From positions 620,001 through 684,000 of the forward strand of contig MPMM01000001.1 of NCBI GenBank assembly GCA_002238505.1: a DNA stretch of 64,000 nucleotides. The letters run 5' to 3'. A program made the translations under genes and the position numbers. The notes beneath the pieces are model-generated. The model saw nothing but the letters and a program-made list of their open reading frames with translations, was not told the origin of the DNA and searched no databases. Positions 22,223-43,472 of the stretch are shown here, piece by piece. Position 1 is the stretch's first letter, and every line of letters begins with the position of its first letter. Source of the DNA: SAR202 cluster bacterium bin22. GTDB taxonomy: Bacteria > Chloroflexota > Dehalococcoidia > Lucifugimonadales > UBA3495.

Positions 22223-23041
22223 ATGCCTGAACTCCCCGAAGTTGAAAACGCCCGGCGGATCCTGCTGCGTGCAGGACTGCCGGGCCGTACCATCACTCGA
22301 GCTCACGTCAGCTGGGCTCCCACCGTAAAGATTCCATCCCTGGAAGATTTCGTACTCGGCCTGCCCACCAGGCGGATAGAGACCGTGTCCCGGCGGGGAA
22401 AGTACCTGCTGCTGCCCCTGCACACCGGTGAAACTTTTATCATCCACCTGGGTATGACCGGCGGTCTGACAGTCCAACCGGATACTCGTGAACTGGAACC
22501 GATGGTCCGCCACCGTTTCGACCTGGATGATGGCCGGGTCCTGTGGTTTCGAGACCCACGCAAATTCGGCCACCTCTGGCTTACCGACGACCCCGACTCG
22601 GCGCTGCCAGCCCTGGGCCCGGAGCCCTTGTCTGAAGACTTTACGGCGGACGTCCTGCAGGAAAGACTCGGCCAGCGGGTTGCCCCGGTCAAGGCCCTTA
22701 TGCTGGAACAGTCCGTAATTGCCGGTCTCGGCAATCTCTACGTGGACGAGTCCCTTTTTCTCGCAGGCATTCACCCCGCCCGCAGCGCATCAGAACTGAC
22801 AGCATCAGAGGTGGCAACCCTGCGAGACTGCATTGTCCACGCATTGAACGCTGCCTTCGCCTTCTACGACCGGGCTCGGGACGAACACTGGCCCGACCCT
22901 CCTTCGGCCCTCCATACCTGGACCATCCCCCGCAAGGAAGGTGAACCCTGCCCCCGCTGCGGCAACCCCGTCGCAACCATGCGAATCAGGGCTCGTGGCA
23001 CCTTCTTCTGCCCCGAGTGCCAGCCCCCGCCGAAGGACTAG
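22223..23041 (+). CDS. mutM: Formamidopyrimidine-DNA glycosylase (Fpg)
   Basis: Excises 8-oxoguanine and formamidopyrimidines and nicks the DNA. The 272-residue protein starts MPELPEVE with the catalytic Pro2 and Glu3, has Lys60 in RRGKYLLLPL, the H2TH region IAGLGNLYVDESLFLAGIHP near residues 166-185, and a C-terminal zinc finger with C243, C246, C263 and C266 around RARGTFFC. Everything needed for activity appears present. It lies 73 nt after ileS and probably shares its transcript. Confidence 0.96.
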   Translation: MPELPEVENARRILLRAGLPGRTITRAHVSWAPTVKIPSLEDFVLGLPTRRIETVSRRGKYLLLPLHTGETFIIHLGMTGGLTVQPDTRELEPMVRHRFDLDDGRVLWFRDPRKFGHLWLTDDPDSALPALGPEPLSEDFTADVLQERLGQRVAPVKALMLEQSVIAGLGNLYVDESLFLAGIHPARSASELTASEVATLRDCIVHALNAAFAFYDRARDEHWPDPPSALHTWTIPRKEGEPCPRCGNPVATMRIRARGTFFCPECQPPPKD

Positions 23042-23613
23042 CGGTAGCTCAATCCTGCTTGGAGACTATCTCAATATCCCTTCCCCCGTGAAGGGGAAGG
23101 TTAGCGCCTGTCCTGAGCCTGCAGAAGGAATGGGGGCGAAAAGCAATATCTATTACTGTCGCATTTTGCCCAATGCTCTGCCTTGAAGAATTTTGAGATA
23201 GTTTCTTGGAAGCGCAAAAGGAATAAGCCGTTCGCGCTGAAGCAAGCGAAGAATTTCTGCACCTACAGGTAACTGACCCCGGCGGACGCAAGAGCCCTGC
23301 CCTTCGCCACCGTCGTTCTTGAACACCCTCGCCTTCCGCAACCCGGCCCGTTGTCCATCCCAGAAAGTTGGATTCCATGTCCAGCCCAGCCTGAAGAAGC
23401 TGTCAATCTAGGAAAGTCACGCATATGAAACGGTATAGTTGACGCTAACAATGGCCTTGCATACAATTGTTCCGATGTCTGGCTGCCTCCCTTATTAGCC
23501 CCCAATCCCCGGGGGCGGGTATGCCAAATTGACAGAATATACCGGAGGCCTGAAAAGGCTCTAATCGGTTGCGGATCCAATGTCCGCCAACCATCAGCGG
23601 AAGGTGATAGTTA
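23042..23613 (+). other. Intergenic region between mutM and the DapA-MfnB-TusA gene
   Basis: No supportable gene lies here. The stretch contains one long copy of the REP-like repeat at 23074-23141. The last bases hold the GGAAGGTGA ribosome-binding site for the downstream gene. No clear promoter could be assigned. Confidence 0.6.
23074..23141. repeat. Long REP-like repeat unit, copy 1
   Basis: About 68 nt, clearly related to 43844-43913. It starts with a TTCCCC/GGGGAA hairpin (8-bp arms CCTTCCCC and GGGGAAGG), continues through GGTTAG and the core CCTGAGCCTGCAGAAGG, and ends AATGGGGGCGAAA. It is entirely intergenic. It has the size of a non-coding mobile or REP/BIME-type element, but no transposase is nearby. 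Confidence 0.7.
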
Positions 23614-25674
23614 ATGGCCGACTACAGAAAACATGAGGCGCAGGAGTGGGCATGGGGGTTCCTCAAGGACCAGTGGACCACCATCATGACTCCCTTTACC
23701 CCCGACAACCGCGTTGACGAGGAAGGCCTCCAGCGAAATATGCGGTACATTCAAAGTCTCGGCACCCGGGGGGGCGGTTGCACCTGGGGAATGGGCGAAT
23801 TCTGGAGCCTGACCTTCGAAGAGCGGACTCGGGTTATGGATGTGGTCGCCGAGGAAGCCGCCGGTCGCTGGGGCATCGCCGCCCACGTCACCCACACCTC
23901 CGTTAAAGACATGCTCGCCCTGGCCGACCGCGCCGAGGCCGACGGATTCGACCTCCTGGTGGTCGCGCCCCCTTACATGGTCGCCAAGACTGAAGAGGTC
24001 GTTTACGACTACGTCAAGACCCTGGCTGACCATACCAACATGGCCATCATGTTCTACAACTCCCCCCAGTTTGGCATCGTGATGAGCCCACAAGGTCTGA
24101 AGCGGCTTTGCCAGATTCCCAACGTGGTTGGCGTCAAGGAAGCCAGCTTCAACCAGCAGACTTCCATCGAGACCCACCTGATGATTGGCAAGCAGTCCAT
24201 CATCAGCACCCCCGATGAGTGGATCTACCCCAAGGCTAAGGAACTAGGTTTCCACCAGCAGGTGATGTTCGCCAACACCTCCGACTGGCGTTTTGATACC
24301 CCCGAATGCAACAACTACGTCCAGTTCATCAACCGCGCCAGCAAGGGCGACCTGGACCTGGACTTTTACGCCGAGCACTTGAAAGATCTCAAGGCTCTTT
24401 CCGACAAGTGGTGGGGCGGCACCGTTCAGAAGTCCGGCGGCGTCTTGCCCGCCCCCATGTGCAAGTATTGGGGCGAACTCATGGGCATGGCCGGCGGCCA
24501 CGTCCGTGCCCCGCTGATGCCGCTGACCGAGGAACAGAAGGCCGAATTGAAGCGGGAGTTGATGCCCCTGATTCCCCGTCCCCAGACCGCCAAGGCGCCC
24601 GCCCAGGCCAGGACTCACGCCCCCTGGTTGAATGAAAGTATTGGCAGCGGCGCCGAGGGCTCCGGCATGATGCTCCTGGTAAGCGTCCAGGACATGCCCG
24701 AAGCCCTGGAAGCCGACCGGGGCGGCGCCGACATTATCGACGTCAAAAACTTGCAAGAGGCCCTTGTAGGCTCCGGCCACCCCAATCTGGTGGAAGAAGT
24801 CCGCCGGCGCATCCCCGCCCACAAGCACGTCAGCGTTACCCTGGGTGTCGTTCCCGACCAGGCCGGCACCGTCGCCATGGCAGTCAAGGCGGCCGGCATG
24901 CTGGACGCAACCTCAGTGAAGGTCGGCTTCTGCGAGGCCACCTATGAGTCCGCCGTTGCAATTCTCCAGGGCGCCAGGGAAGCCCTCAGAGGCTACGACA
25001 CCAAGCTCATCGGCTCCCTGTTCGCTGACAACCATCTCTTCAAGGGCGGCCTCGACCCTGACCTGATGGTCAAGCTGGCCATCGAAGGCCAGTGCGACGG
25101 CTTCCTTATTGACACTCTGACCAAGGACGGCCGCAACCTCTTTGACTTCATCCTTGAGTCTCGCCTCCGGGAAATGGTGATGGAGGCCAAGCAGGCCGGA
25201 CTCAGTACCGCCCTCTCTGGTCACCTGAAGCTGGACAACCTGGACGAACTGGCCCGCGTCAACCCCGATATTGTTGGCGTCCGTGGGGCCGTTTGCTCCA
25301 GCGGTGAGCGCGACCGGGCGGTGGCTTGGGAAGCCGTAGCCCATTTCAAGGAACAGCTCGACCTGCGCAAGTCCGGCCAGATTGACGTCCGCCGGCAGCC
25401 CGTAAGTGGGAACGGACACAGCAACGGCAACGGCCACCACGACGGCTGGGCCGTGGTTGACGGCCGGGGCAAGAACTGCGCCGGTGTAATCGCTGCCCTC
25501 AGCCGGCAGATGGACGACGACCGGGGCTCCTTCGTTGAGGCTATCCTCCACGACGCCCTGAACATTTACGACGTCATCTACTGGGCGGAACAGGCCGGCC
25601 ACAAGCTGCTTACCCAGCGCAAAGAGGACGACGGTACCCTCCGGGTGCTGATCCAGCCCTTCGGCAGCAAATAG
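23614..25674 (+). CDS. Three-domain fusion: DapA-type aldolase + MfnB-type synthase + TusA-like domain
   Basis: A 686-residue protein. Residues 15-320 are a dihydrodipicolinate-synthase-family TIM barrel with Tyr148 (FYNSPQ) and Schiff-base Lys175 (GVKEAS). Residues 352-582 match (5-formylfuran-3-yl)methyl phosphate synthase (MfnB), which condenses two glyceraldehyde-3-phosphates in methanofuran synthesis. GGADIIDVKN with Lys378, DTLTKDGRNLFDF with Lys504 and IVGVRGAVCSSGERDR correspond to the archaeal catalytic segments (K27 and K155 of MJ1099). After a Gly/Asn/His-rich linker, residues 610-683 look like TusA, with Cys622 kept but the CPxP prolines lost. The substrate is unknown. The combination suggests substrate channelling to a furan-type product, which is inference. 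A good ribosome-binding site precedes the ATG. Confidence 0.85.
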   Translation: MADYRKHEAQEWAWGFLKDQWTTIMTPFTPDNRVDEEGLQRNMRYIQSLGTRGGGCTWGMGEFWSLTFEERTRVMDVVAEEAAGRWGIAAHVTHTSVKDMLALADRAEADGFDLLVVAPPYMVAKTEEVVYDYVKTLADHTNMAIMFYNSPQFGIVMSPQGLKRLCQIPNVVGVKEASFNQQTSIETHLMIGKQSIISTPDEWIYPKAKELGFHQQVMFANTSDWRFDTPECNNYVQFINRASKGDLDLDFYAEHLKDLKALSDKWWGGTVQKSGGVLPAPMCKYWGELMGMAGGHVRAPLMPLTEEQKAELKRELMPLIPRPQTAKAPAQARTHAPWLNESIGSGAEGSGMMLLVSVQDMPEALEADRGGADIIDVKNLQEALVGSGHPNLVEEVRRRIPAHKHVSVTLGVVPDQAGTVAMAVKAAGMLDATSVKVGFCEATYESAVAILQGAREALRGYDTKLIGSLFADNHLFKGGLDPDLMVKLAIEGQCDGFLIDTLTKDGRNLFDFILESRLREMVMEAKQAGLSTALSGHLKLDNLDELARVNPDIVGVRGAVCSSGERDRAVAWEAVAHFKEQLDLRKSGQIDVRRQPVSGNGHSNGNGHHDGWAVVDGRGKNCAGVIAALSRQMDDDRGSFVEAILHDALNIYDVIYWAEQAGHKLLTQRKEDDGTLRVLIQPFGSK

Positions 25675-25784
25675 TACCCGGCCGGTTTCCCTAAGCAAAC
25701 CTACTGGCAACTTTCACCCCTGCGCCTCCACGGAAGCAGGGGTGAACATTTTCAAGCCAAAATCCTGGCAAGGATGTGAAATCA

Positions 25785-26405
25785 ATGGCTACCGAAGAAC
25801 GATGGAGCATGAAGGGGGACTACTTCGAGAACTGCAATTGCGAAATTCTTTGCCCTTGCATCGTCGGAGGCGGTCCCGCCGTGCCGACGGATGGTCACTG
25901 CGATGTGGCCTTTGCCTTCCACATCCAGGAGGGCGAGTACCAGGGGGTTGCCCTGGACGACCTGAATTTCGTCGTCGTGGCCTACACGCCGGGCATCATG
26001 GGTGACGGCGACTGGATCCTGGCCAACTACCTGGACGAGCGGGCGGACCAGTTTCAGCGCGCCGCCTTCGGACGCCTCATGTCCGGGGAGATTGGTGGCC
26101 CCTTTGAACGCTGGATGCGCCTGACCTCCAACTACCTGGGAATCAGCTACTGCCCAATCACCTTCACCGCCGACGGCCACGAGCGCAGCGTCAAAATCCC
26201 CGGCATCATCGACTTCAACGTCAAGGGGCTGGTGGTGGGACGCCGGACTGAGGCTATGACCCTGATTAACACCGGCCACCCGGTCAGTTCATCCCTGGCC
26301 CTGGCCGAGGGGACCAGCAGCGTCTATACCGACCACGGAATGACGTGGGACAATACCGGCAAGAACGGCCATTACTCGGAATTTGAGTGGAGTTGGCCCC
26401 GGTAG
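25785..26405 (+). CDS. DUF1326 domain protein
   Basis: A 206-residue protein of the DUF1326 family, whose function is unknown. The N-terminus has the typical Cys-rich block MKGDYFENCNCEILCPCIVG followed by GGPAVPTDGHCDVAFAFHIQ, suggesting metal binding or thiol chemistry (inference). The conserved core YTPGIMGDGDWILANYLDER and SSVYTDHGMTWDNTGKNGHY follows. A GTG at 25776 is also in frame, but AAGG at 25770-25773 is correctly spaced only for the ATG at 25785. It lies 110 nt downstream of the DapA-MfnB-TusA gene, likely in the same operon. Confidence 0.8.
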   Translation: MATEERWSMKGDYFENCNCEILCPCIVGGGPAVPTDGHCDVAFAFHIQEGEYQGVALDDLNFVVVAYTPGIMGDGDWILANYLDERADQFQRAAFGRLMSGEIGGPFERWMRLTSNYLGISYCPITFTADGHERSVKIPGIIDFNVKGLVVGRRTEAMTLINTGHPVSSSLALAEGTSSVYTDHGMTWDNTGKNGHYSEFEWSWPR

Positions 26406-26646: not shown

Positions 26647-27069
26647 TCAGGAAACATTCCCCCCGTAGATATGCTCCGGGACCACAATAATCGCCGAGCG
26701 CTGCTGCTCCACCATCGCCCGGTCGTACTCATCCCAGTCCGGATGCTCCGTGGCCGCCGCGGTACGAAACACGTCCCTCAGGGCCATTCGCAGCTCGTCG
26801 GCATCGGTGTTGTCCGCCGACAGCAGCCGCGCGGACCCCTGCAGCACGATGTAAGCCGACCAGTTTTCCCGCGCCACCATCAGTGAGCATTGCGGGTTGC
26901 GGCGCAGGTTCTTCAGCTTGGCCCGGTCTTCAGTGGTCGTGAAGGCCACCCCGTCCTGCAGGGGCCCGCAGGTGATAATGCTCATCTGCGCCGATCCGTC
27001 CCTGCGGACTGTGGTCAGAACCCCTCTCCGATTCTCGGCTACGAACTTCTTGAGATTGTCGTCCAGCAT
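26647..27069 (-). CDS. PPOX-class flavin/F420-dependent protein
   Basis: A 140-residue protein with the split-barrel flavin-binding fold of the pyridoxamine-5-phosphate-oxidase superfamily. MLDDNLKKFVAENRRGVLTT, VRRDGSAQMSIITCGPLQDG and AFTTTEDRAKLKNLRRNPQC match the subfamily often annotated as F420-dependent oxidoreductases. Whether this one uses F420, FMN or haem cannot be read from the sequence. It lies 37 nt downstream of the sbcC-like gene on the same strand and converges on the DUF2277 gene. Confidence 0.82.
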   Translation of the reverse strand: MLDDNLKKFVAENRRGVLTTVRRDGSAQMSIITCGPLQDGVAFTTTEDRAKLKNLRRNPQCSLMVARENWSAYIVLQGSARLLSADNTDADELRMALRDVFRTAAATEHPDWDEYDRAMVEQQRSAIIVVPEHIYGGNVS

Positions 27070-33055: not shown

Positions 33056-36000
33056 TTACCCGTTGTCTTCGATCAATACTTTTACATGCCCGGTCACAAA
33101 ATCCTCAACATCTGAAGTCAGCACTACCTCCTTCCACAGGTCCAAATCACTGGAGTCAGCGCTCGAGGTCAAGGTCACGGTCTGCGCCGTATTCCAGTTG
33201 CTGGTAGTGAAGGTCAGGCTGCCTGGACTGGCGCTTAAGTAACCCGCGGGGGTGACAGTCAGGGAAACGGCAACATCCTCATCCGGCTCGGACCCCAGGG
33301 CCACCGTGAAGGTGCCGGTGCTTCCCTCGGTCAGCGTAATGCTATGGGCGCTTAAAACAGGCCAGATCGTATCCTCGTTAGCGGTTACCGTCGAGTTGTT
33401 GGTTACCGTCTCCTCGGTGAAACTGACCAGCGCATTGCTGGCCCCGTCAACGAGCATGTCCGATACATCCTCTGTGAATGAATTGTCATAAGACACCTCG
33501 ACGTCCTGACCCTCGGTTATTTCCGTATCCAGGCTGAGTGTGAGGTCCGAACCGGAGATGCTCGCTCCCGTGGTATGAATTCGGTGATCGTCCACGAAGA
33601 TATCAAAGAGGACCCGCAGGAATATTCCCACGTCAAGGCCGGCGAAGGAGCTAAGCGTCCGCAGGCTGGACGAAACATTTACATCCTCGTCGAACGTGAT
33701 GGTTACCTCGGATCCGCCCGCTGAGGTCTCCGCGCTGCTGAATTTGGGCGGCACGGCCCCAACCAGATGGTTCTCGTTGTCAACGGCCGCGTTGCTGTTA
33801 TTGGTGGCATTGCCGGCAACGTCGACAATGGTCCCGCCATTGAGGCTCAGCGCATTGGCGCCAATCGATATACCGTCGGTGTCCTCGTCGCCGGCCACAA
33901 CCGTATAGGCAAATTTCAGCGTCCTGGAATCGGTTTCGGCATCGGACTGGTAAGCGGCGATCTTGGTCACCCCGCCCACATCCACTGCCAGTTGTGGGCT
34001 GCCGGTAACTGTTACCGTGTCGCTGAACTTCGCCAGTAGCTCTATGGAGTCTCCATTCTCGTATGTATTGTCATCGCCAGGTTCGGATGCAATGGAAACG
34101 GACACCAGCTCCACTTGCCCATCGACTTGGTGACCTCCCAGGTTGACCAGTCCTGGTAAGGATTCCTGGGTCGCAACCTGGGTACCGGTGGCAACAATGC
34201 TGCCGCTGCCCCCAAAGCCGTCGCCGGTCTGGGCTGTCAGCGACACACCGTCAGCGTCTTCGTCGGCGGTCTGCACCTCGTATTCGAAGACCAGGCTGTT
34301 AGTGCCTGTGCCGGAACTGTAGTCGGCGTCCTTTTCCGATTCGCCTATTTTCAACTTTATGGAAGGGGTTTCCGTCACATCCACCTTTTGGTCGAAAGTC
34401 AAGGAAACTGCGATGGTCTCTTCGGCTCGGTAAACGCCTCCTTGTGCGGGAGTGGAAGTGACCGCAACGGCAGTTACGTAGGGTCGCCCGTCCACCTTAT
34501 GGCTGGCCTGGCTTTCCAGTCCCGGTATTCTTCCTCGCGAGCGGTTGGTGGTCCCCTTCTGGTTCACGTGACCGCCGCTCTCAAATCCGCCGGAAACCCG
34601 GGCCATTATGGCCATACCATTAGTGTCTAGGTCAGAGGGCACAACATCGTAGGCGAACACCAGAGTGTCCGTACCTGAGCCGCTGCTGTAGGTGGCGTTG
34701 CGCTGATTTCCGGTGCCGTCACCCACCAGAATCCTGATAGTTGGCGTTCCCGACACTTCCACGTCAAAGTAGAAGGTCAACGACACCTCGATAGTCTCAC
34801 CCTCCCGGTAGGTATCGCCGCTGGCAGGCGTTGATGTGACCGATTGGTCGCTTACTACCGGCAAGAACGCATAGACCCGGTGCCCTTCCTGCACCGGCAG
34901 TTCCGGAATATCCAGGTGCGCTTTTACAGTGGTTCCACTGGCATAGAGGTTTCCATCACCCAGAATTTTTTTATTCGCCGATATGGAAATGCCGTCATCG
35001 TCCCTTTGCTGGTTGCTTACCCGGTGAACGAAGACCAGCAGATTGTCCCGGGATGAACTGCTATAGCTGGGCGCATAGGTGTCTGTGTTGAACCCTGACC
35101 CTATGTTCAGGGGAATGTTAAGGGGCGGGTCCACCGACAGATTCTGGTCGAAGGTAACGGTGATCTCGATATCTTCCCCGATTCCATAGGTGTTTCCGCT
35201 GGCCGGGGTGGAAGTGACGGCAATTCCGGTAGCATAAGGCCTGCCGTCAACTTTATGGGAAGATTGGTCTCCCAGGGCGTCGTAGAACGGATTGATAACG
35301 TAATCCTCAGATTGGCGGGTAACGCTCCCTCCGGCGGCTATGCCCTGTATGGCTCCGTCGCCGTCAATGTAACCCCGTTCCACGCTAATGCCGTCGCTGT
35401 CACTATCTTCTGCAACTACTGTGTAGCGGAAATACAGCGCGTCCGTCCCTGAGCCACTGCTGTACGTGGCATCAACCCAGTCGTCGCCGCCCTCGCCAAT
35501 CTGTACCCTGAGTTTCGGGCTGCCGTCCACCGTTACGGAACGGTCGAACTCAGCCTTTATCTCCAGGGTTTCGCCGTACCTGTACGTCTCATTGCCGGAA
35601 GGTGTGGACGACACGGATAACTTTTCCACGTACGGGCCACCGTAAACCGTTTGGCCCGTTCCTTCCGCAAGACCGGCATATATGGTGTTTACCGTGTTGC
35701 TGCCGTCCGACGTAACTAGAGAACCCGCTCCGCCATAGTCGGAACCAGGAACTACGATACCGTCGGTGTCCAGGTCTGACTCCACTACCTCATATTCAAA
35801 GGTCAGGGTATCGGTACCGCTTCCGCGCTTGTATGTGGCTTCCCTCGTTACATAGTCGTCGGCAGTGCCAATGTTCAGCCCCAAAGTAAAGCTTCCATTC
35901 TGGACGGTGACATTCTCAGTGAATTGCTGTTTGATCTTTATGACATCGCCCTTGCCATAGGCATTCAGGATGGAGCCGTCGTCGGCTACTACGGTTTCCC

Positions 36001-36508
36001 CATCCGGATCGCTGTCTATCCAGGTCTTGACCGCGCCTGCCCCATCGTTGTCTTCAATATTGATGATACAGACCCCCGCGCCAGTGCCGTTTGATTCAGC
36101 GTTAATGGCGCGAACGCTGTAGGACTCAGTGAACTCTGAGTACGAATCATTGGTCGTCTGGAAGGTACGTCCCATGCTGCCGCTCTCGGACTGGGACATG
36201 GTGCTGGTCTGCTCCTCGCCGTGCAGTGCCGTGTAGTCGGACTCGCCCGCCGTGCCGGGAATCGTGTACCAGTTCACCCTCATCGTTTCCGTGTTGTTTT
36301 CCTGGCCGTTAGCGACATTCAGCGTGAACGATTCGCCTTCGGTCACTGAACCGGTGCCGCACTCTATTTGCAGCGACGAGGCATAGGCAGCAACCGGCTG
36401 CGGTTGCTGTAACGCCATCAACGCCATCAACCCTGAAATCCCCGCCACCACAAGAACTCCCAGTAATGGCAACCGAAACAATTCCACTTTGTTCGCTAGT
36501 CCCTTCAT
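33056..36508 (-). CDS. Giant secreted modular beta-sandwich protein A
   Basis: A 1,150-residue predicted extracellular protein. Residues 1-42 are a type I signal peptide (basic start, hydrophobic core, AYA-type end). Next is a Calx-beta-like domain with an N-terminal Cys (LQIEC) and a later Cys (GVCIINIEDND) that could form a disulfide. Then come six modules of about 110-130 residues with the pattern TSTPASGxTYxxGExIEVxLTFD, then YSSGSGTDxLxFxYxV and DxDxDGI. These are followed by a SwmB-like domain (KFSSAETSAGGSEVTITFDE) and a terminal domain (SITLTEGSTGTFTVALGSEP). There is no LPXTG, membrane anchor or sorting tail, so attachment is unknown. It is probably an adhesin or surface layer protein (inference). 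Paralogue of the next two genes. Confidence 0.85.
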   Translation of the reverse strand: MKGLANKVELFRLPLLGVLVVAGISGLMALMALQQPQPVAAYASSLQIECGTGSVTEGESFTLNVANGQENNTETMRVNWYTIPGTAGESDYTALHGEEQTSTMSQSESGSMGRTFQTTNDSYSEFTESYSVRAINAESNGTGAGVCIINIEDNDGAGAVKTWIDSDPDGETVVADDGSILNAYGKGDVIKIKQQFTENVTVQNGSFTLGLNIGTADDYVTREATYKRGSGTDTLTFEYEVVESDLDTDGIVVPGSDYGGAGSLVTSDGSNTVNTIYAGLAEGTGQTVYGGPYVEKLSVSSTPSGNETYRYGETLEIKAEFDRSVTVDGSPKLRVQIGEGGDDWVDATYSSGSGTDALYFRYTVVAEDSDSDGISVERGYIDGDGAIQGIAAGGSVTRQSEDYVINPFYDALGDQSSHKVDGRPYATGIAVTSTPASGNTYGIGEDIEITVTFDQNLSVDPPLNIPLNIGSGFNTDTYAPSYSSSSRDNLLVFVHRVSNQQRDDDGISISANKKILGDGNLYASGTTVKAHLDIPELPVQEGHRVYAFLPVVSDQSVTSTPASGDTYREGETIEVSLTFYFDVEVSGTPTIRILVGDGTGNQRNATYSSGSGTDTLVFAYDVVPSDLDTNGMAIMARVSGGFESGGHVNQKGTTNRSRGRIPGLESQASHKVDGRPYVTAVAVTSTPAQGGVYRAEETIAVSLTFDQKVDVTETPSIKLKIGESEKDADYSSGTGTNSLVFEYEVQTADEDADGVSLTAQTGDGFGGSGSIVATGTQVATQESLPGLVNLGGHQVDGQVELVSVSIASEPGDDNTYENGDSIELLAKFSDTVTVTGSPQLAVDVGGVTKIAAYQSDAETDSRTLKFAYTVVAGDEDTDGISIGANALSLNGGTIVDVAGNATNNSNAAVDNENHLVGAVPPKFSSAETSAGGSEVTITFDEDVNVSSSLRTLSSFAGLDVGIFLRVLFDIFVDDHRIHTTGASISGSDLTLSLDTEITEGQDVEVSYDNSFTEDVSDMLVDGASNALVSFTEETVTNNSTVTANEDTIWPVLSAHSITLTEGSTGTFTVALGSEPDEDVAVSLTVTPAGYLSASPGSLTFTTSNWNTAQTVTLTSSADSSDLDLWKEVVLTSDVEDFVTGHVKVLIEDNG

Positions 36509-37114: not shown

Positions 37115-40100
37115 TTACTCCTCCACCAGCACCTTCACGTGGCCAATGACGAAGCCGGAGGCGGTGGAAGTATGGGTGATTTCCTGCCAGGAGTCGTGGC
37201 TGTCCTCGTCGGTTCCGGCGGTGAGAGTTACCGTCTGGGCCGTGTCCCAGTTCTCCGTGGTGAAGGTCAACTCGCTGGCGCTGACGGTTACGGTTCCGGC
37301 TGGTGATACGGTCAGGGTGACCGTCACGTCGGCAGCCGGCTGGGAGTCCAGTTTCACGGTGTAACTACTGGTACCCCCTTCCGCCATGGTGAGGCTGTGG
37401 CTGCTCAATACGGGCCACAGAGAGTCGTCATCATCGGCCACGGTGGAGTTGTTGGTTACCGACTGGGCCGAGAACTGGCCCAGGCTGTTTCCGGCGTCGT
37501 CCACCAGCAGGCCAGCCATGGCCGCGGTGAAGGAATTGTCATACGACACCTTCACCTCGTGAGCCAGGGTTATGGCCGAATCCAGGGTCAGGGAAAGTTC
37601 CTCGTCGGAAATCACGGCGTTGGTAATGTGCATCCGGTGGTCGTCGGCAAAGACGTCCACCAGGACCTGCAGATAGACGCTCGCATCAACCCCGGCGAAG
37701 GTGGACAGGGTGCGCAGACTACCGGAAATGTCCACGTCCTCGCTGAAGGAAATGGTGAGGGTCTTGCCGTCGGTGGAAGTAACCGCGCTAGCGAAGGTGG
37801 GCGCCACGGCATCCACCAAATGGTCCTCAGCACTTACGGCTGCATAGGTCAGATTTGCAGCGGTGTCATCCTCGTCCTCGATGCTTCCGTCGTTCAGGGC
37901 CAGGCCGTTTTCGGTTACGGTTATGCCGTCGGTGTCCTCATCCCCGCTCTGCACCTCGTACTCAAAGACCAGGGTAGCTGTCCCCGTGCCGCTTTCGTAG
38001 TCGGCCTCCCGCTCGTTGTCCCCAATGGTGAGCTTGACCGTCGGTTCGCCATCCACGTCCACGGCTCGGTCGAAGGACAGGGAGACGTTAATTGTCTCGC
38101 CGGCGACGTAGGTGCCATTGCTGGCGGGGGTGGAAGTTATGGCTGCCGTCGTTATGTAGGGACGGCCGTCCACCTTGTGGGCGCCCTGGCTTGTTATGCC
38201 GGTAATGGTTGCCTTGACCTTGTTCTCCGTGTCCAGCTCATAGACCCGGAAGGGGCCGTCTATGCCGTCGCTTTCCCGTGCCGTCAAGGCCACGCCGTCG
38301 GTGTCCAGGTCAGTTGCCTGTACCGTGTAGGAGAAGACTAGGGTCTTGGACTCGTCGCCGCTGCTGTAGGTGGCATCCCTGCGGATGTCCGTATCCCCAA
38401 GTTCCAGCCGGATGGTGGGGCGGCCCAGGACTTCTACTTCCTTGTCGAAGGTGAGGGAGACTTCAATGTCTTCTCCCAACCGATAGGTGTCCCCTTCCGC
38501 CGGGCTGGAGGTGAAGGCGGCGCTTTCTATGTAGGGAAGCCGGCCGTCTATTGTGTGGGAGGCCTGGATTTCCAGCGCCGGTATAAAGTCGTTCACCGTT
38601 GTTTCCGTGTCCGGTATCCGCACCGATCCCGTGCCGATGAATCCGGTGCGTTCGGGGACCGAGATGCCGTCGGTGTCCAGGTCATTCTCTTCGATGTCAT
38701 AGCGGAAGGTCAGGGTATTGGTCAGGGAACCGGAGGCGTACTTGGCGTTTTCCTGCCTGCCGTCGGTCGCTGACCCAATCCACAGCGGGACGTAGGGCAG
38801 GCCGGCAACTGAGACGGTCTGGTCGAAAGTGAGGGCAACGTCTATGTCGTCCCCATACCGGTAGGCAACGCCGTTGGAAGGGGTTGAGGATATCGCAACG
38901 CCGGTAACGTAGGGACGACCGTCAACCTTGTGCTCCGGCTGAGGGTCGGTTGACAGGTCCAGGAAATAGGTGTTTACGTAAACCTCGCCGTCGCTTTCCG
39001 AAACTCTGCCCGACCCGTTGATGGCATACTGCCCTCCTCCGCTCAACGTGTTTTCCAGGGCTGCCAGGGCAATTCCATCGGAGTCAGCGTTATTAACGTC
39101 GACTTGGTACTGGAAGACCAGGGTATCCGTTCCCGAGCCGCTGCTGTACGGGAACTGGGTGGCGGTGCCTGTTCCATCGCCTATTTTTACCTTGATCCAG
39201 ACAGCGCCTTCCACTTTAACGGGCCGGTTGAACTGCATGCTTACATCTATGGACTCGCCCTTGCGGTAGGTGTCTCCGCTGGCCGGCGTGGATGTGACAC
39301 TCATATCTACCAGGAATGGCTTGCCGGAGACTATCTGGTCCGAATCCTCGCCAATTCCCTGGTACTTGTAGTTGATCTCGGTACTGTCGGCCTGGGTTGT
39401 GATGGTGGCGCCGTCGTCGTGTTCTCTGTCGGGTATTTCGATCCCGTCCCGGTCAATATCGGCCCAGATGACATCGTACTCATAAGTGAGGGTGTCAGTG
39501 CCCGAGCCGCTCACGTAATCCGCGGAACGCGCATTACCGTAGGATTGTTGTTCAAGATTGAAGTCAAGCTCAAGGTCGTCGCCAGATACCACCACAGCCT
39601 CGGTGAACTGCTGCTTGATGGTGATGGTCTCGCCCGGCTCATACCCCCAGGAGTTCTCTGGGTCGGAAGACACCCAGATCTTTTTGGCGCCGGGGCCGTC
39701 ATCGTCCGTGATAGTTATTGTGCATTCCGTTGAGCCGAAGACATGGCCTTCAGGCTCGAACCAGACTTTGAACTGCTCAGAATTCTCTGAGACGGTGTCC
39801 TCAGTGGTCTGAAAGGTCTTGGTCATTCGCCGCTGTCGCCAGGCGTACCAGTAATTGCCGTCCTGCCTCACCCGGTCCAGAGCCGGAAAGTCGCGTTCAT
39901 CGGCGGTGCCGGGAGTTGTTGACCAGTACACCTCGAAAGGTTCTGCCGCTCCGGTGCCCGTGGGCTCGCCCCAACTAACGTTGAGAACGGCCACCTCGAA
40001 ACTGTCGCCTTCCGTTACCGGACCGTCGGGACACTCTATGTCATGCCAGGGCCTGACGGCGTGGGCCGGAGTTGGGACCAGGGCAGCCAGCAGCACCAGT

Positions 40101-40183
40101 CCGGCGACTAGCAGTCCCGCTATGGGCAGCACTGCCGCGCCCGGCCTTTTCATTCCTTCAAACTCTTGAGAGATAGACTTCAT
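37115..40183 (-). CDS. Giant secreted modular beta-sandwich protein B
   Basis: A 1,022-residue paralogue of protein A. It has a signal peptide ending PTPAHA, a Calx-beta-like domain with paired cysteines (DIECPDG; GSTECTITITDDDG), five repeat modules starting KIWVSSDP, VDMSVTSTPASGDTYRKGE, TGVAISSTPSNGVAYRYGD, ESAAFTSSPAEGDTYRLGE and TTAAITSTPASNGTYVAGE, then a SwmB-like domain (FASAVTSTDGKTLTISFSED) and the terminal domain ending GHVKVLVEE. AGGAG lies seven bases before the ATG. A second in-frame ATG ten codons on is possible. The last 345 residues are more than 90% like protein C by eye. Acidic throughout, with no membrane anchor. Confidence 0.85.
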   Translation of the reverse strand: MKSISQEFEGMKRPGAAVLPIAGLLVAGLVLLAALVPTPAHAVRPWHDIECPDGPVTEGDSFEVAVLNVSWGEPTGTGAAEPFEVYWSTTPGTADERDFPALDRVRQDGNYWYAWRQRRMTKTFQTTEDTVSENSEQFKVWFEPEGHVFGSTECTITITDDDGPGAKKIWVSSDPENSWGYEPGETITIKQQFTEAVVVSGDDLELDFNLEQQSYGNARSADYVSGSGTDTLTYEYDVIWADIDRDGIEIPDREHDDGATITTQADSTEINYKYQGIGEDSDQIVSGKPFLVDMSVTSTPASGDTYRKGESIDVSMQFNRPVKVEGAVWIKVKIGDGTGTATQFPYSSGSGTDTLVFQYQVDVNNADSDGIALAALENTLSGGGQYAINGSGRVSESDGEVYVNTYFLDLSTDPQPEHKVDGRPYVTGVAISSTPSNGVAYRYGDDIDVALTFDQTVSVAGLPYVPLWIGSATDGRQENAKYASGSLTNTLTFRYDIEENDLDTDGISVPERTGFIGTGSVRIPDTETTVNDFIPALEIQASHTIDGRLPYIESAAFTSSPAEGDTYRLGEDIEVSLTFDKEVEVLGRPTIRLELGDTDIRRDATYSSGDESKTLVFSYTVQATDLDTDGVALTARESDGIDGPFRVYELDTENKVKATITGITSQGAHKVDGRPYITTAAITSTPASNGTYVAGETINVSLSFDRAVDVDGEPTVKLTIGDNEREADYESGTGTATLVFEYEVQSGDEDTDGITVTENGLALNDGSIEDEDDTAANLTYAAVSAEDHLVDAVAPTFASAVTSTDGKTLTISFSEDVDISGSLRTLSTFAGVDASVYLQVLVDVFADDHRMHITNAVISDEELSLTLDSAITLAHEVKVSYDNSFTAAMAGLLVDDAGNSLGQFSAQSVTNNSTVADDDDSLWPVLSSHSLTMAEGGTSSYTVKLDSQPAADVTVTLTVSPAGTVTVSASELTFTTENWDTAQTVTLTAGTDEDSHDSWQEITHTSTASGFVIGHVKVLVEE

Positions 40184-40409: not shown

Positions 40410-43400
40410 TTACTCTTCCACCAGCACCTTCAGATGGCCGGTTACAAATCCCGTGGTTTCGGAGGTATGGGTGATTTCCTGCCAGGAGTCGTGGCTGTCC
40501 TCGTCGGTTCCGGCGGTGAGAGTTACCGTCTGGGCCGTGTCCCAGTTTTCTGTGGTGAAGGTCAACTCGCTGGCGCTGGCGGTTACGGTTCCGGCTGGTG
40601 ATACAGTCAGGGTGACCGTCACGTCGGCATCCGGCTGGGAGTCCAGCTTCACGGTGTAACTACTGGTACCGCCTTCCGCCATGGTGAGGCTGTGGCTGCT
40701 GAGAACGGGCCACAGGGAGTCGTCATCATCGGCCACGGTGGAGTTGTTGGTCACCGACTGGGCCGAGAACTGGCCCAGGCTGTTTCCGGCGTCGTCCACC
40801 AGCAGGTCGGCCATGGCCGCGGTGAAGGAATTGTCATACGACACCTTCACCTCGTGACCCAGGGTCAGGGCTGAGTCCAGGGTCAGGGAAAGTTCCGCGT
40901 CGGAAATCTCTGCGTTGGTAATGTGCATCCGGTGGTCGTCGGCAAAGACGTCCACCAGGACCTGCAGATAGACACTGGCATCCACGCCGGCGAAGGTGGA
41001 CAGGGTGCGCAGACTGCCGGAAATGTCCACGTCCTCGCTGAATGTGATGGTGACGGTCTTGCCGTCAGTGGAGGTAACCGCGCTGACGAAGGTGGGTGCC
41101 ACGGCGTCCACCAGTTGATCTTCAACACTAATGGCTGCATAGGTCAGGTTGGCAGCGGTGTCATCCTCGTCCTCGATGCTGCCGTCGTTCAGGGCCAGGG
41201 CGTTTGCGGCTACGGTAATGCCGTCGGTGTCCTGATCCCCGCTCTGGACCTCGTCCTCAAAGACCAGGGAAGCTGTACCCGTGCCGCTTTCGTAGTCGGC
41301 CTCCCGCACGTTGTCCCCAATGGTGAGCTTGACCGTGGGTTCTCCTGCAACGTCCACGGCCCGGTCGAAGGTCAGGGAGACGTCAATAGTCTCGCCGGCG
41401 ACATAGATGCTATTGCTGGCGGGGGTGGAAGTTATGGCGGCCGCCGTTATGTAGGGACTCCCGGCCACCTTATGGCTTGCCTGGTTGTCCAGGCCCGGTA
41501 TTCTCCCCCTCGAAAAATTGCTGGTTCCCGGTTCCTTTATGTTGCCGCCATTGAACCCGCCGCTGGGGAGCGACAATATACCCACGCCATCCGTGTCCAT
41601 GTCACTCGCCTGAACCACATAGCTGAACTTCAGGGTGTCGGTGCCGGACCCGCTGCTGTAGGTTGCACTCCTCTGGCTTGGCGATGGTCCCAGCAGAATC
41701 TTGATGGCGGGGGTGTCCTGTACCTCGACCGCATAGTAGAAAGTCAGGGAAATTTCGATGGTTTCACCCATCCAGTATGTGTCGCCCGTCGCGGGCGTTG
41801 ACGTAATGGCATTGGCGCTTACCGACGGCAGGAACCCGTACACCTTTTGCCCTTCCTGGTCGGGCAGCGTCGGTATGTCCCGGATTGCCGCCACCGTAGT
41901 CCCCGAGGCATAAATGGTCCCGGACTCCAGGATTCTTCTCCCTTCAGAAATGGATATGCCGTCGTCATCCCGCTGCTGCGCCCCCACCCGGTGGGTGAAG
42001 ACCAGTTTATTGCCTTCAGGGGTGCTGGAATAGGATGCGGTCCAGGTCTCGGTGTTAGTACCGTCCCCGATGGCTATGGGAATGCTGAGGGGCGAGGTCG
42101 CTGACACGTCCTGGTCAAAAGTGGCGATGAAACTAATGCTGTCCCCAATGCGGTAGTGGGTACCGTTGGGCGGTGTGGAGGTAACCTCCAGGGCCGTGAC
42201 GTAGGGGCGCCCATCCAGCTTGTGGCTCTCCTGGTCGGCAAGTCCCGTGTAGTAGGCACTGATTTCAAGGTCGTCGGGGTCGGTAATGGACCCCGTTCCG
42301 CTAAAGCCGAAAGCGGTCCCTCCCGAGTCAACAGTCCCGTCAATCACCAGGATTCCGTCGGTGTCCTGGTCCTTGGCCTGGACAGTGTACTTGAACACCA
42401 GGGTGTCGGAGTCAGTGCCACTATCATACGCGGCGCCTCGCCAGGTATCATCTCCCTCGCCCACCCGCAAGCCAAGGAGGACCTGGCCGTCCACCTCGAC
42501 GTTCCGGTCGAACTCCAGCTCAAACTCAATCACCTCACCCGCGCGGTAGGTGTCGTTCCCGGCCGGCGTGGAGACAATAGTCAGTTCCTCCACATGTGCC
42601 TTGCCGCTTACCTGCTGGTCGGAGTCTGCGGCCGCGCCTTTGTAGGTGGAGTTAACCGCGGCGCTGTCGTCTTCAGTAGCTATTGATCCGCTGCCGCCAT
42701 AGTCTGAGGCGTTTATCGAGATTCCGTCCCGGTCCTCGTCGGCTGCCGCCACCGTATATTCGAAGGTAAGAGTATTGGTGCCTGAACCGCTGACATAGGC
42801 GGCGCTCCGTCTTGCTTCGGTGTCGTCGCCTCCAATTTGTATCCCGACGTTGACGTCGCCGGTAACGGTAACGTCTTCGGTAAACTGCTGCTTGATGCGG
42901 ATGGTTTCTCCCCGCCCGTAGATGGAGTCAGGGTTTGTTGACTCTTCATCGTCACCACCGGGGGTACTGTCTATCCACGTCTTCCAGGCCCCGGGGCCGT
43001 CGTCGTCCACAATAAGCATGCCGCAAGCCGTCCAGCCAAAGACTGGGCCTGCCGGGTCGAACCACACTCTGAAAGACTCTCTCCTCTCCGACCAGGTGTC
43101 TTCCGTAGTGTAGAAAGTCTTGGACATTTCCCTGGATAGCCAGGTCTCCGCATAGGTGCCCTGCTGTCTTTCACGTTTGACGGCGGTGTAGTCATCTTCT
43201 TTGGCGGTGCCGGCGGTGGTTGACCAGTACACGTCAAAGGTCTCACCATGCTCCTCGGAAGCTCCTGTGAGCCTGGTATTGCGCACTTTCATTACGAAAC
43301 TGTCGCCTTCATCTATGAGGTTGTTGGGGCAGGTAGCGCTGTACCAGGGGCTGGTGGTGGCGTAGGCGGGGGTCGGAGCCAGCGACGCCAGTAATACCGC

Positions 43401-43472
43401 CAGTCCGACCACTGCCAGCGCTGCCAATCCGACCTTTCTTGTTGCGCCAAACCTGCAAGGGGTTGCTTTCAT
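40410..43472 (-). CDS. Giant secreted modular beta-sandwich protein C
   Basis: A 1,020-residue paralogue. It has a signal peptide ending PTPAYA, a Calx-beta-like domain with paired cysteines (SATCPNN; GWTACGMLIVDDDG), five modules starting KTWIDSTPGG, EELTIVSTPAGNDTYRAGE, TALEVTSTPPNGTHYRIGD, SANAITSTPATGDTYWMGE and TAAAITSTPASNSIYVAGE, then SwmB-like and terminal domains ending GHLKVLVEE. The middle (for example GFLPSVSANAITSTP and SRGRIPGLDNQASHKV) is closest to protein A, while the C-terminal third is almost identical to protein B, so the gene looks mosaic. AGGAG seven bases upstream fixes the ATG. No anchor is visible. Confidence 0.85.
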   Translation of the reverse strand: MKATPCRFGATRKVGLAALAVVGLAVLLASLAPTPAYATTSPWYSATCPNNLIDEGDSFVMKVRNTRLTGASEEHGETFDVYWSTTAGTAKEDDYTAVKRERQQGTYAETWLSREMSKTFYTTEDTWSERRESFRVWFDPAGPVFGWTACGMLIVDDDGPGAWKTWIDSTPGGDDEESTNPDSIYGRGETIRIKQQFTEDVTVTGDVNVGIQIGGDDTEARRSAAYVSGSGTNTLTFEYTVAAADEDRDGISINASDYGGSGSIATEDDSAAVNSTYKGAAADSDQQVSGKAHVEELTIVSTPAGNDTYRAGEVIEFELEFDRNVEVDGQVLLGLRVGEGDDTWRGAAYDSGTDSDTLVFKYTVQAKDQDTDGILVIDGTVDSGGTAFGFSGTGSITDPDDLEISAYYTGLADQESHKLDGRPYVTALEVTSTPPNGTHYRIGDSISFIATFDQDVSATSPLSIPIAIGDGTNTETWTASYSSTPEGNKLVFTHRVGAQQRDDDGISISEGRRILESGTIYASGTTVAAIRDIPTLPDQEGQKVYGFLPSVSANAITSTPATGDTYWMGETIEISLTFYYAVEVQDTPAIKILLGPSPSQRSATYSSGSGTDTLKFSYVVQASDMDTDGVGILSLPSGGFNGGNIKEPGTSNFSRGRIPGLDNQASHKVAGSPYITAAAITSTPASNSIYVAGETIDVSLTFDRAVDVAGEPTVKLTIGDNVREADYESGTGTASLVFEDEVQSGDQDTDGITVAANALALNDGSIEDEDDTAANLTYAAISVEDQLVDAVAPTFVSAVTSTDGKTVTITFSEDVDISGSLRTLSTFAGVDASVYLQVLVDVFADDHRMHITNAEISDAELSLTLDSALTLGHEVKVSYDNSFTAAMADLLVDDAGNSLGQFSAQSVTNNSTVADDDDSLWPVLSSHSLTMAEGGTSSYTVKLDSQPDADVTVTLTVSPAGTVTASASELTFTTENWDTAQTVTLTAGTDEDSHDSWQEITHTSETTGFVTGHLKVLVEE

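Follow-up and report, generated by a model that had tools for sequence, protein, structure and literature searches.

Within the 64,000-nucleotide window analysed here (SAR202 cluster bacterium bin22, assembly GCA_002238505.1 of 4.39 Mb, contig MPMM01000001.1, positions 620,001 to 684,000), a DapA-like, an MfnB-like and a TusA-like domain were found on one polypeptide of 686 amino acids, encoded from ATG to stop by an open reading frame (ORF) at 23614-25674 of the forward strand. The chain is regarded here as the fused form of a furan-forming module of SAR202-type Chloroflexota which does not serve methanofuran, an interpretation that, as a complete three-step scheme, stands at about even chances. 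As a furan-making enzyme is conserved without the methanofuran pathway, the module probably makes an undescribed furan compound.

Residues 354-578 belong to the Pfam family 4HFCP_synth (PF04476), which they matched with 176 bits at a cut-off of 22.4, and in an AlphaFold model this part matched MfnB of Methanocaldococcus jannaschii, the (5-formylfuran-3-yl)methyl phosphate (4-HFC-P) synthase MJ1099 (PDB 4rc1), with a TM-score of 0.90 at 36% identity. D376, K378, K436, D500 and K504 align with D25, K27, K85, D151 and K155 of the archaeal enzyme and were invariant in 68 of 68 homologues. We take D25, K27, K85 and D151 to be active-site residues of MfnB, with D376, K378, K436 and D500 as their equivalents here. 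K155 was described as a catalytic and substrate-binding residue of MfnB (PMC11365854). Judged by these residues, the domain is likely to form a furan aldehyde in the manner of MfnB.

The search for the same architecture in Chloroflexota, proposed as a check with the original prediction that had been made for this DNA, yielded 68 distinct homologues, all with the same domain order and all from Dehalococcoidia-class Chloroflexota, with SAR202 cluster metagenome-assembled genomes among the named relatives. In 49 the domains are fused; in the other 19 a DapA-like gene precedes a separate MfnB-TusA gene, adjacent on the same strand in every pair (gap -8 to +205 bp), and the stop/start junction falls inside the linker of residues 317-353, where the predicted local distance difference test (pLDDT) was below 50 at residues 324-337 and 339-350. 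An assembly or frameshift artefact was rejected and has a practically negligible probability, because the fused homologues come from many assemblies, several of them on near-complete contigs of 3-4 Mb, and the frame is open without internal stops. A single change between the split and the fused state suffices for the MfnB-TusA tree, and likewise for the DapA tree; branch support was 85 on a quick MfnB tree, and the fusion likely arose in a single event. On the simplest account, an operon of two genes (DapA-like plus MfnB-TusA) was fused once and then inherited, and the module is taken to be vertically inherited in SAR202-type Chloroflexota. The fusion, predicted as the unit, is thus real and recurrent, whereas split homologues and trees point to the operon as the deeper unit.

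Among 59 related genomes the module was present in 45, counting one where a contig edge leaves just a fragment, and the DapA subtype occurred only together with MfnB; the remaining 14 gave weak generic-DapA matches (about 22-33% identity) and no MfnB. A class-wide sample contained the module in 18 of 393 genomes, with MfnB and TusA joined in all 18, and in a phylum-wide sample MfnB was found in two of 400 genomes, both within the order of the window's genome. K175, Y148, D376, K378, K436, D500, K504 and C622 are all invariant where the respective domain is complete, including the four residues (K175, K378, K504, C622) that the original prediction had singled out as catalytic or retained. Its claim of one frame with three domains was likewise borne out by the ORF, the Pfam matches and the structure models.

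For the DapA-like domain, residues 22-316 matched the DHDPS (dihydrodipicolinate synthase) family with 111.8 bits (Pfam cut-off 22.1), and the AlphaFold model of this part matched the fold of DHDPS and N-acetylneuraminate lyase (NAL) at a TM-score of about 0.85. The Schiff-base lysine K175 and Y148, equivalent to Tyr133 of DHDPS, are present. The Tyr107 position is occupied by Met, Phe or Ile (M122 here) and the Arg138 position by Phe153, and the aromatic residues W58, F63, W64, F153, W266 and W267 are invariant. The roles of GTTGE, Tyr107, Tyr133 and Arg138 in DHDPS are presumed to be those assigned to these positions here. The designation 'DapA-type' of the original prediction hence holds for fold, Schiff-base lysine and catalytic tyrosine, but not for the GTTGE, Arg138 and Tyr107 positions; as these are changed, ordinary pyruvate or DHDPS chemistry cannot be assumed. 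A lysine-pathway DapA was rejected because of this motif loss, a score of 86 bits under the 206-bit cut-off of the dapA model TIGR00674 and a separate dapA homologue elsewhere in the genome (G000:C31:7209-7691). The nearest outside relatives found were alphaproteobacterial DapA-like proteins of about 30% identity. Beside these, a 3-hydroxyanthranilate-dioxygenase-like gene was seen in two of three inspected cases and an aspartate dehydrogenase near all three; in the plasmid clusters L095 (4716-8554) and L096 (6995-9530) the DapA-like and dioxygenase-like genes occur with aspartate dehydrogenase nearby, and L095 also carries a molybdenum (Mo) hydroxylase subunit.

Residues 614-681 scored 24.7 bits to TusA (PF01206) in the whole protein, below the cut-off of 28.6, and 29.8 bits as an isolated domain, and the homologous C-terminal domains matched TusA in 28 of 28 cases. 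The domain search proposed with the prediction thus placed both the middle and the isolated C-terminal part in the expected families, and the structure prediction of the C-terminal region gave a TusA fold (beta-alpha-beta-alpha-beta-beta, mean pLDDT 83.5). Its best PDB matches in Foldseek included YeeD/TsuB, Escherichia coli TusA, a SirA-like protein and YhhP (TM-score about 0.70-0.81, E 0.0025-0.03). A PDB profile search with the alignment of the domain gave no match at E up to 1, so that the homology to TusA rests on Pfam and fold. Fold and cysteine of the predicted TusA-like domain stand, but the prolines of CPxP are lost and persulfide transfer can only be suggested; the acyl-carrying role, proposed as an alternative, found no support. 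The conserved positions make a functional C622 likely, and sulfur transfer proper may be envisaged, if with some doubt. The full-length AlphaFold model had a pLDDT of 77.9 and a predicted TM-score of 0.49 and therefore does not show how the domains are arranged.

In the scheme proposed here, two glyceraldehyde-3-phosphates would be condensed by the MfnB domain through a Schiff base at K378, with K436, K504, D376 and D500 taking part, and the conserved catalytic residues suggest as product 4-HFC-P, a furan aldehyde phosphate, or something closely related. The DapA-like domain, with K175, Y148 and an aromatic-rich, non-canonical pocket, very probably serves an adjacent step in the pathway of the MfnB domain, because it is constantly paired and fused with MfnB. 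Its most likely reaction would be the making or breaking of a C-C bond at the carbonyl of the furan aldehyde, although that it acts on this aldehyde rather than supplying triose phosphate falls slightly short of an even chance. C622 of the TusA-fold domain might donate a persulfide or, as a thiol, hold an intermediate for the MfnB domain, the weakest step of the scheme.

Several observations weigh against this interpretation. The score of 176.1 bits misses the 341-bit cut-off of the NCBIfam MfnB equivalog, the position of GTTGE, a criterion for DHDPS, reads W58-(G/N/A)-M-G-E, with the usual pyruvate motif lost from the pocket, CAGV replaces CPxP around C622, and across the loci examined no conserved pathway partner was found beside the module. 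A score at about half of the equivalog cut-off makes a changed product possible. Starting from other aldehydes or triose phosphates, the MfnB domain could form some other Schiff-base aldol product, in a two-aldolase pathway without a furan; the modest identity to the archaeal enzyme would fit, as would the fact that no furan-using pathway was found in the genomes examined, but the five active-site equivalents are kept without exception on an almost identical fold, and we consider this unlikely, if worth keeping in mind. That the furan is instead destined for a genuine methanofuran or methylofuran C1 (one-carbon) carrier would agree with the characterised role of MfnB and with the homologue Orf22 of Methylorubrum, which serves methylofuran in methylotrophs (PMC8141765). 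However, none of the 20 genomes tested, comprising the window's own and those of 19 relatives, contained the families MCH, FTR or MfnF, while archaeal controls were positive; in 11 of these genomes completeness reached at least 90% and contamination did not exceed 5%. Methanofuran synthesis was rejected on these grounds and is highly improbable. The predicted new furan metabolite accordingly remains plausible as a non-methanofuran product, whereas its sulfur-bearing part is only suggested.

Concerning the partner domains, a KDG/KDPG-type (2-keto-3-deoxygluconate/2-keto-3-deoxy-6-phosphogluconate) aldolase or dehydratase upstream of MfnB, releasing glyceraldehyde-3-phosphate directly for it, would be in line with the membership of such aldolases and of KdgD in the DapA family, with the best NCBIfam match (KdgD subfamily PRK03620, 92 bits, just above dapA and far under its cut-off) and with the gene order, in which DapA precedes MfnB; yet the GXXGE pyruvate/keto-acid motif is gone, W58 is invariant and glyceraldehyde-3-phosphate is available from central metabolism without dedicated supply, which leaves this quite unlikely. 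Somewhat better, though still rather improbable, are the prospects of a non-catalytic TusA-fold domain, either as a docking or oligomerisation module or as the general TusA of the cell riding on the MfnB chain. The domain is the sole TusA-family match in the window's genome and has lost the CPxP prolines, but C622 is invariant in all 67 sequences, as are D616, G617, G619, E642, D647, D653, W657 and H663, and some relatives (e.g., G038 and G042) carry standalone TusA-family matches besides the module, so that a general role is not constant. A sulfur-bearing furan or furan-derived coenzyme or metabolite made on one chain, where MfnB would close the furan, the TusA-type cysteine deliver sulfur and the DapA-like domain extend or rearrange the aldehyde, must be called a long shot. 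The three-step furan-forming scheme is preferred; the features of the gene are compiled in Table 1.

Table 1: Features of the fusion gene and its surroundings in the window.
Feature	Position	Strand	Evidence
Complete fusion gene, DapA-like, MfnB-like and TusA-like domains	23614..25674	+	ORF and Pfam, 49 fused and 19 adjacent-split homologues
Shine-Dalgarno-like AAGGTGAT, 5 nucleotides 5' of ATG	23601..23608	+	Sequence read
DHDPS-family (PF00701) TIM barrel, residues 22-316	23677..24561	+	111.8 bits; NAL/DHDPS structural match
W58-G59-M60-G61-E62 replacing family GXXGE (GTTGE) motif; W58, G61, E62 invariant	23785..23799	+	Alignment
Y148 codon, aligned with DHDPS catalytic Tyr133, invariant	24055..24057	+	Alignment
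K175 codon, Schiff-base lysine, invariant 67/67	24136..24138	+	Alignment
Variable low-confidence linker, residues 317-353, fusion site	24562..24672	+	pLDDT and split-homologue junctions
MfnB / 4-HFC-P synthase (PF04476) domain, residues 354-578	24673..25347	+	176 bits; 4rc1 TM-score 0.90
D376-V377-K378 codons, M. jannaschii MfnB D25-V26-K27; D and K invariant	24739..24747	+	Alignment
K436 codon, K85 of M. jannaschii MfnB, invariant	24919..24921	+	Alignment
D500-T501-L502-T503-K504, D151 ... K155; D500 and K504 invariant	25111..25125	+	Alignment
Second linker, residues 579-613, Gly/Asn/His-rich	25348..25452	+	Sequence, model
TusA-fold domain (PF01206), residues 614-681	25453..25656	+	Pfam, fold model
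C622 codon, invariant 67/67; CAGV motif instead of CPxP	25477..25479	+	Alignment
DUF1326 protein, CNCEILCPC cysteine motif, directly downstream	25776-26405	+	Pfam

The surroundings of the module change with the lineage, so that no downstream gene pins the product. In the window the gene on the 5' side (22223-23041) resembles formamidopyrimidine glycosylase, as judged by eye. The DUF1326 protein, suggested earlier as a pathway partner, had to be given up as such, as it adjoins the fusion only in the window's genus (g1) and one sister genus (g4). In a sister clade (L035-L048) a trio of xanthine dehydrogenase (XDH)-family Mo-hydroxylase genes (FAD, 2Fe-2S and Mo subunits) follows 3' of the fusion on the same strand; being lineage-limited and separated by roughly 100-250 bp in most loci, it was rejected as a part of the module. 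The conserved neighbours in the split lineages are housekeeping-like (RecG, DegV, prephenate dehydratase, potassium uptake; names given by eye from the beginnings of the sequences), and those at other loci are unrelated or housekeeping, varying with the lineage. With neighbours of this kind, the module is self-contained. Near the fusion gene the window also holds an F420-dependent PPOX-class oxidoreductase (TIGR03618, over cut-off; 26647-27069, reverse strand). Farther along, three tandem, similar-looking ORFs of 1020-1150 amino acids occur on the reverse strand (33056-36508, 37115-40183, 40410-43472). Their beginnings resemble signal peptides, similar C...EG(D/E)S stretches come next, and Pfam gave only sub-threshold matches to DUF4625.

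Each of the three domain families is known; no description was found of the architecture, the strict pairing or an orphan MfnB in this class. In the open-access papers searched (MfnB with TusA, MfnB with Chloroflexi, SAR202 with methanofuran or dihydrodipicolinate synthase; most subscription papers lie outside this search) no protein joining DapA, MfnB and TusA appeared, in agreement with the original prediction. The papers found assign MfnB solely to methanofuran-type C1 coenzymes, and SAR202-type Chloroflexota are an abundant ocean lineage; a conserved MfnB with two constant partner domains and without methanofuran markers therefore points to an undescribed furan metabolite, a chance that is real but unproven. 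Since all activities reside on one or two polypeptides, it is testable with one purified protein and glyceraldehyde-3-phosphate.

Compared with known systems, the DapA-like domain shares the TIM barrel, the Schiff-base lysine and the catalytic tyrosine with the DHDPS/NAL/KdgD superfamily, but differs by W(G/N/A)MGE for GTTGE, Met/Phe/Ile for Tyr107 and Phe for Arg138. With TusA, SirA and YeeD (PF01206) the C-terminal domain has the fold and the cysteine position in common, whereas it shows CAGV for CPxP, an identity of 13-19% and a location on an MfnB chain. Orf22 of the methylotrophs is, like the SAR202 domain, a bacterial MfnB homologue, but it sits in an archaeal-like C1 cluster with MfnE and MfnF homologues (PMC8141765), while MfnF, FTR and MCH are absent in the 20 genomes tested here. 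MfnB homologues of about 37% identity on Streptomyces plasmids (NZ_CP108735, NZ_CP108584) stand outside a C1 cluster, as in SAR202, but are without TusA or DapA domains; the run consists of the MfnB homologue, an aldehyde dehydrogenase, an alcohol dehydrogenase and an S-adenosylmethionine (SAM) methyltransferase (L067 7986-12356, L068 7980-12437) and is a possible furan natural-product cluster, so that recruitment of MfnB outside methanofuran has a parallel. With M. jannaschii MfnB itself, fold, over a third of the residues and all five active-site equivalents are shared; the window's protein, in contrast, scores below the equivalog cut-off and occurs in a cell without methanofuran marker genes, and the MfnB domain carries a C-terminal TusA fusion in every Dehalococcoidia case seen and often a DapA fusion as well.
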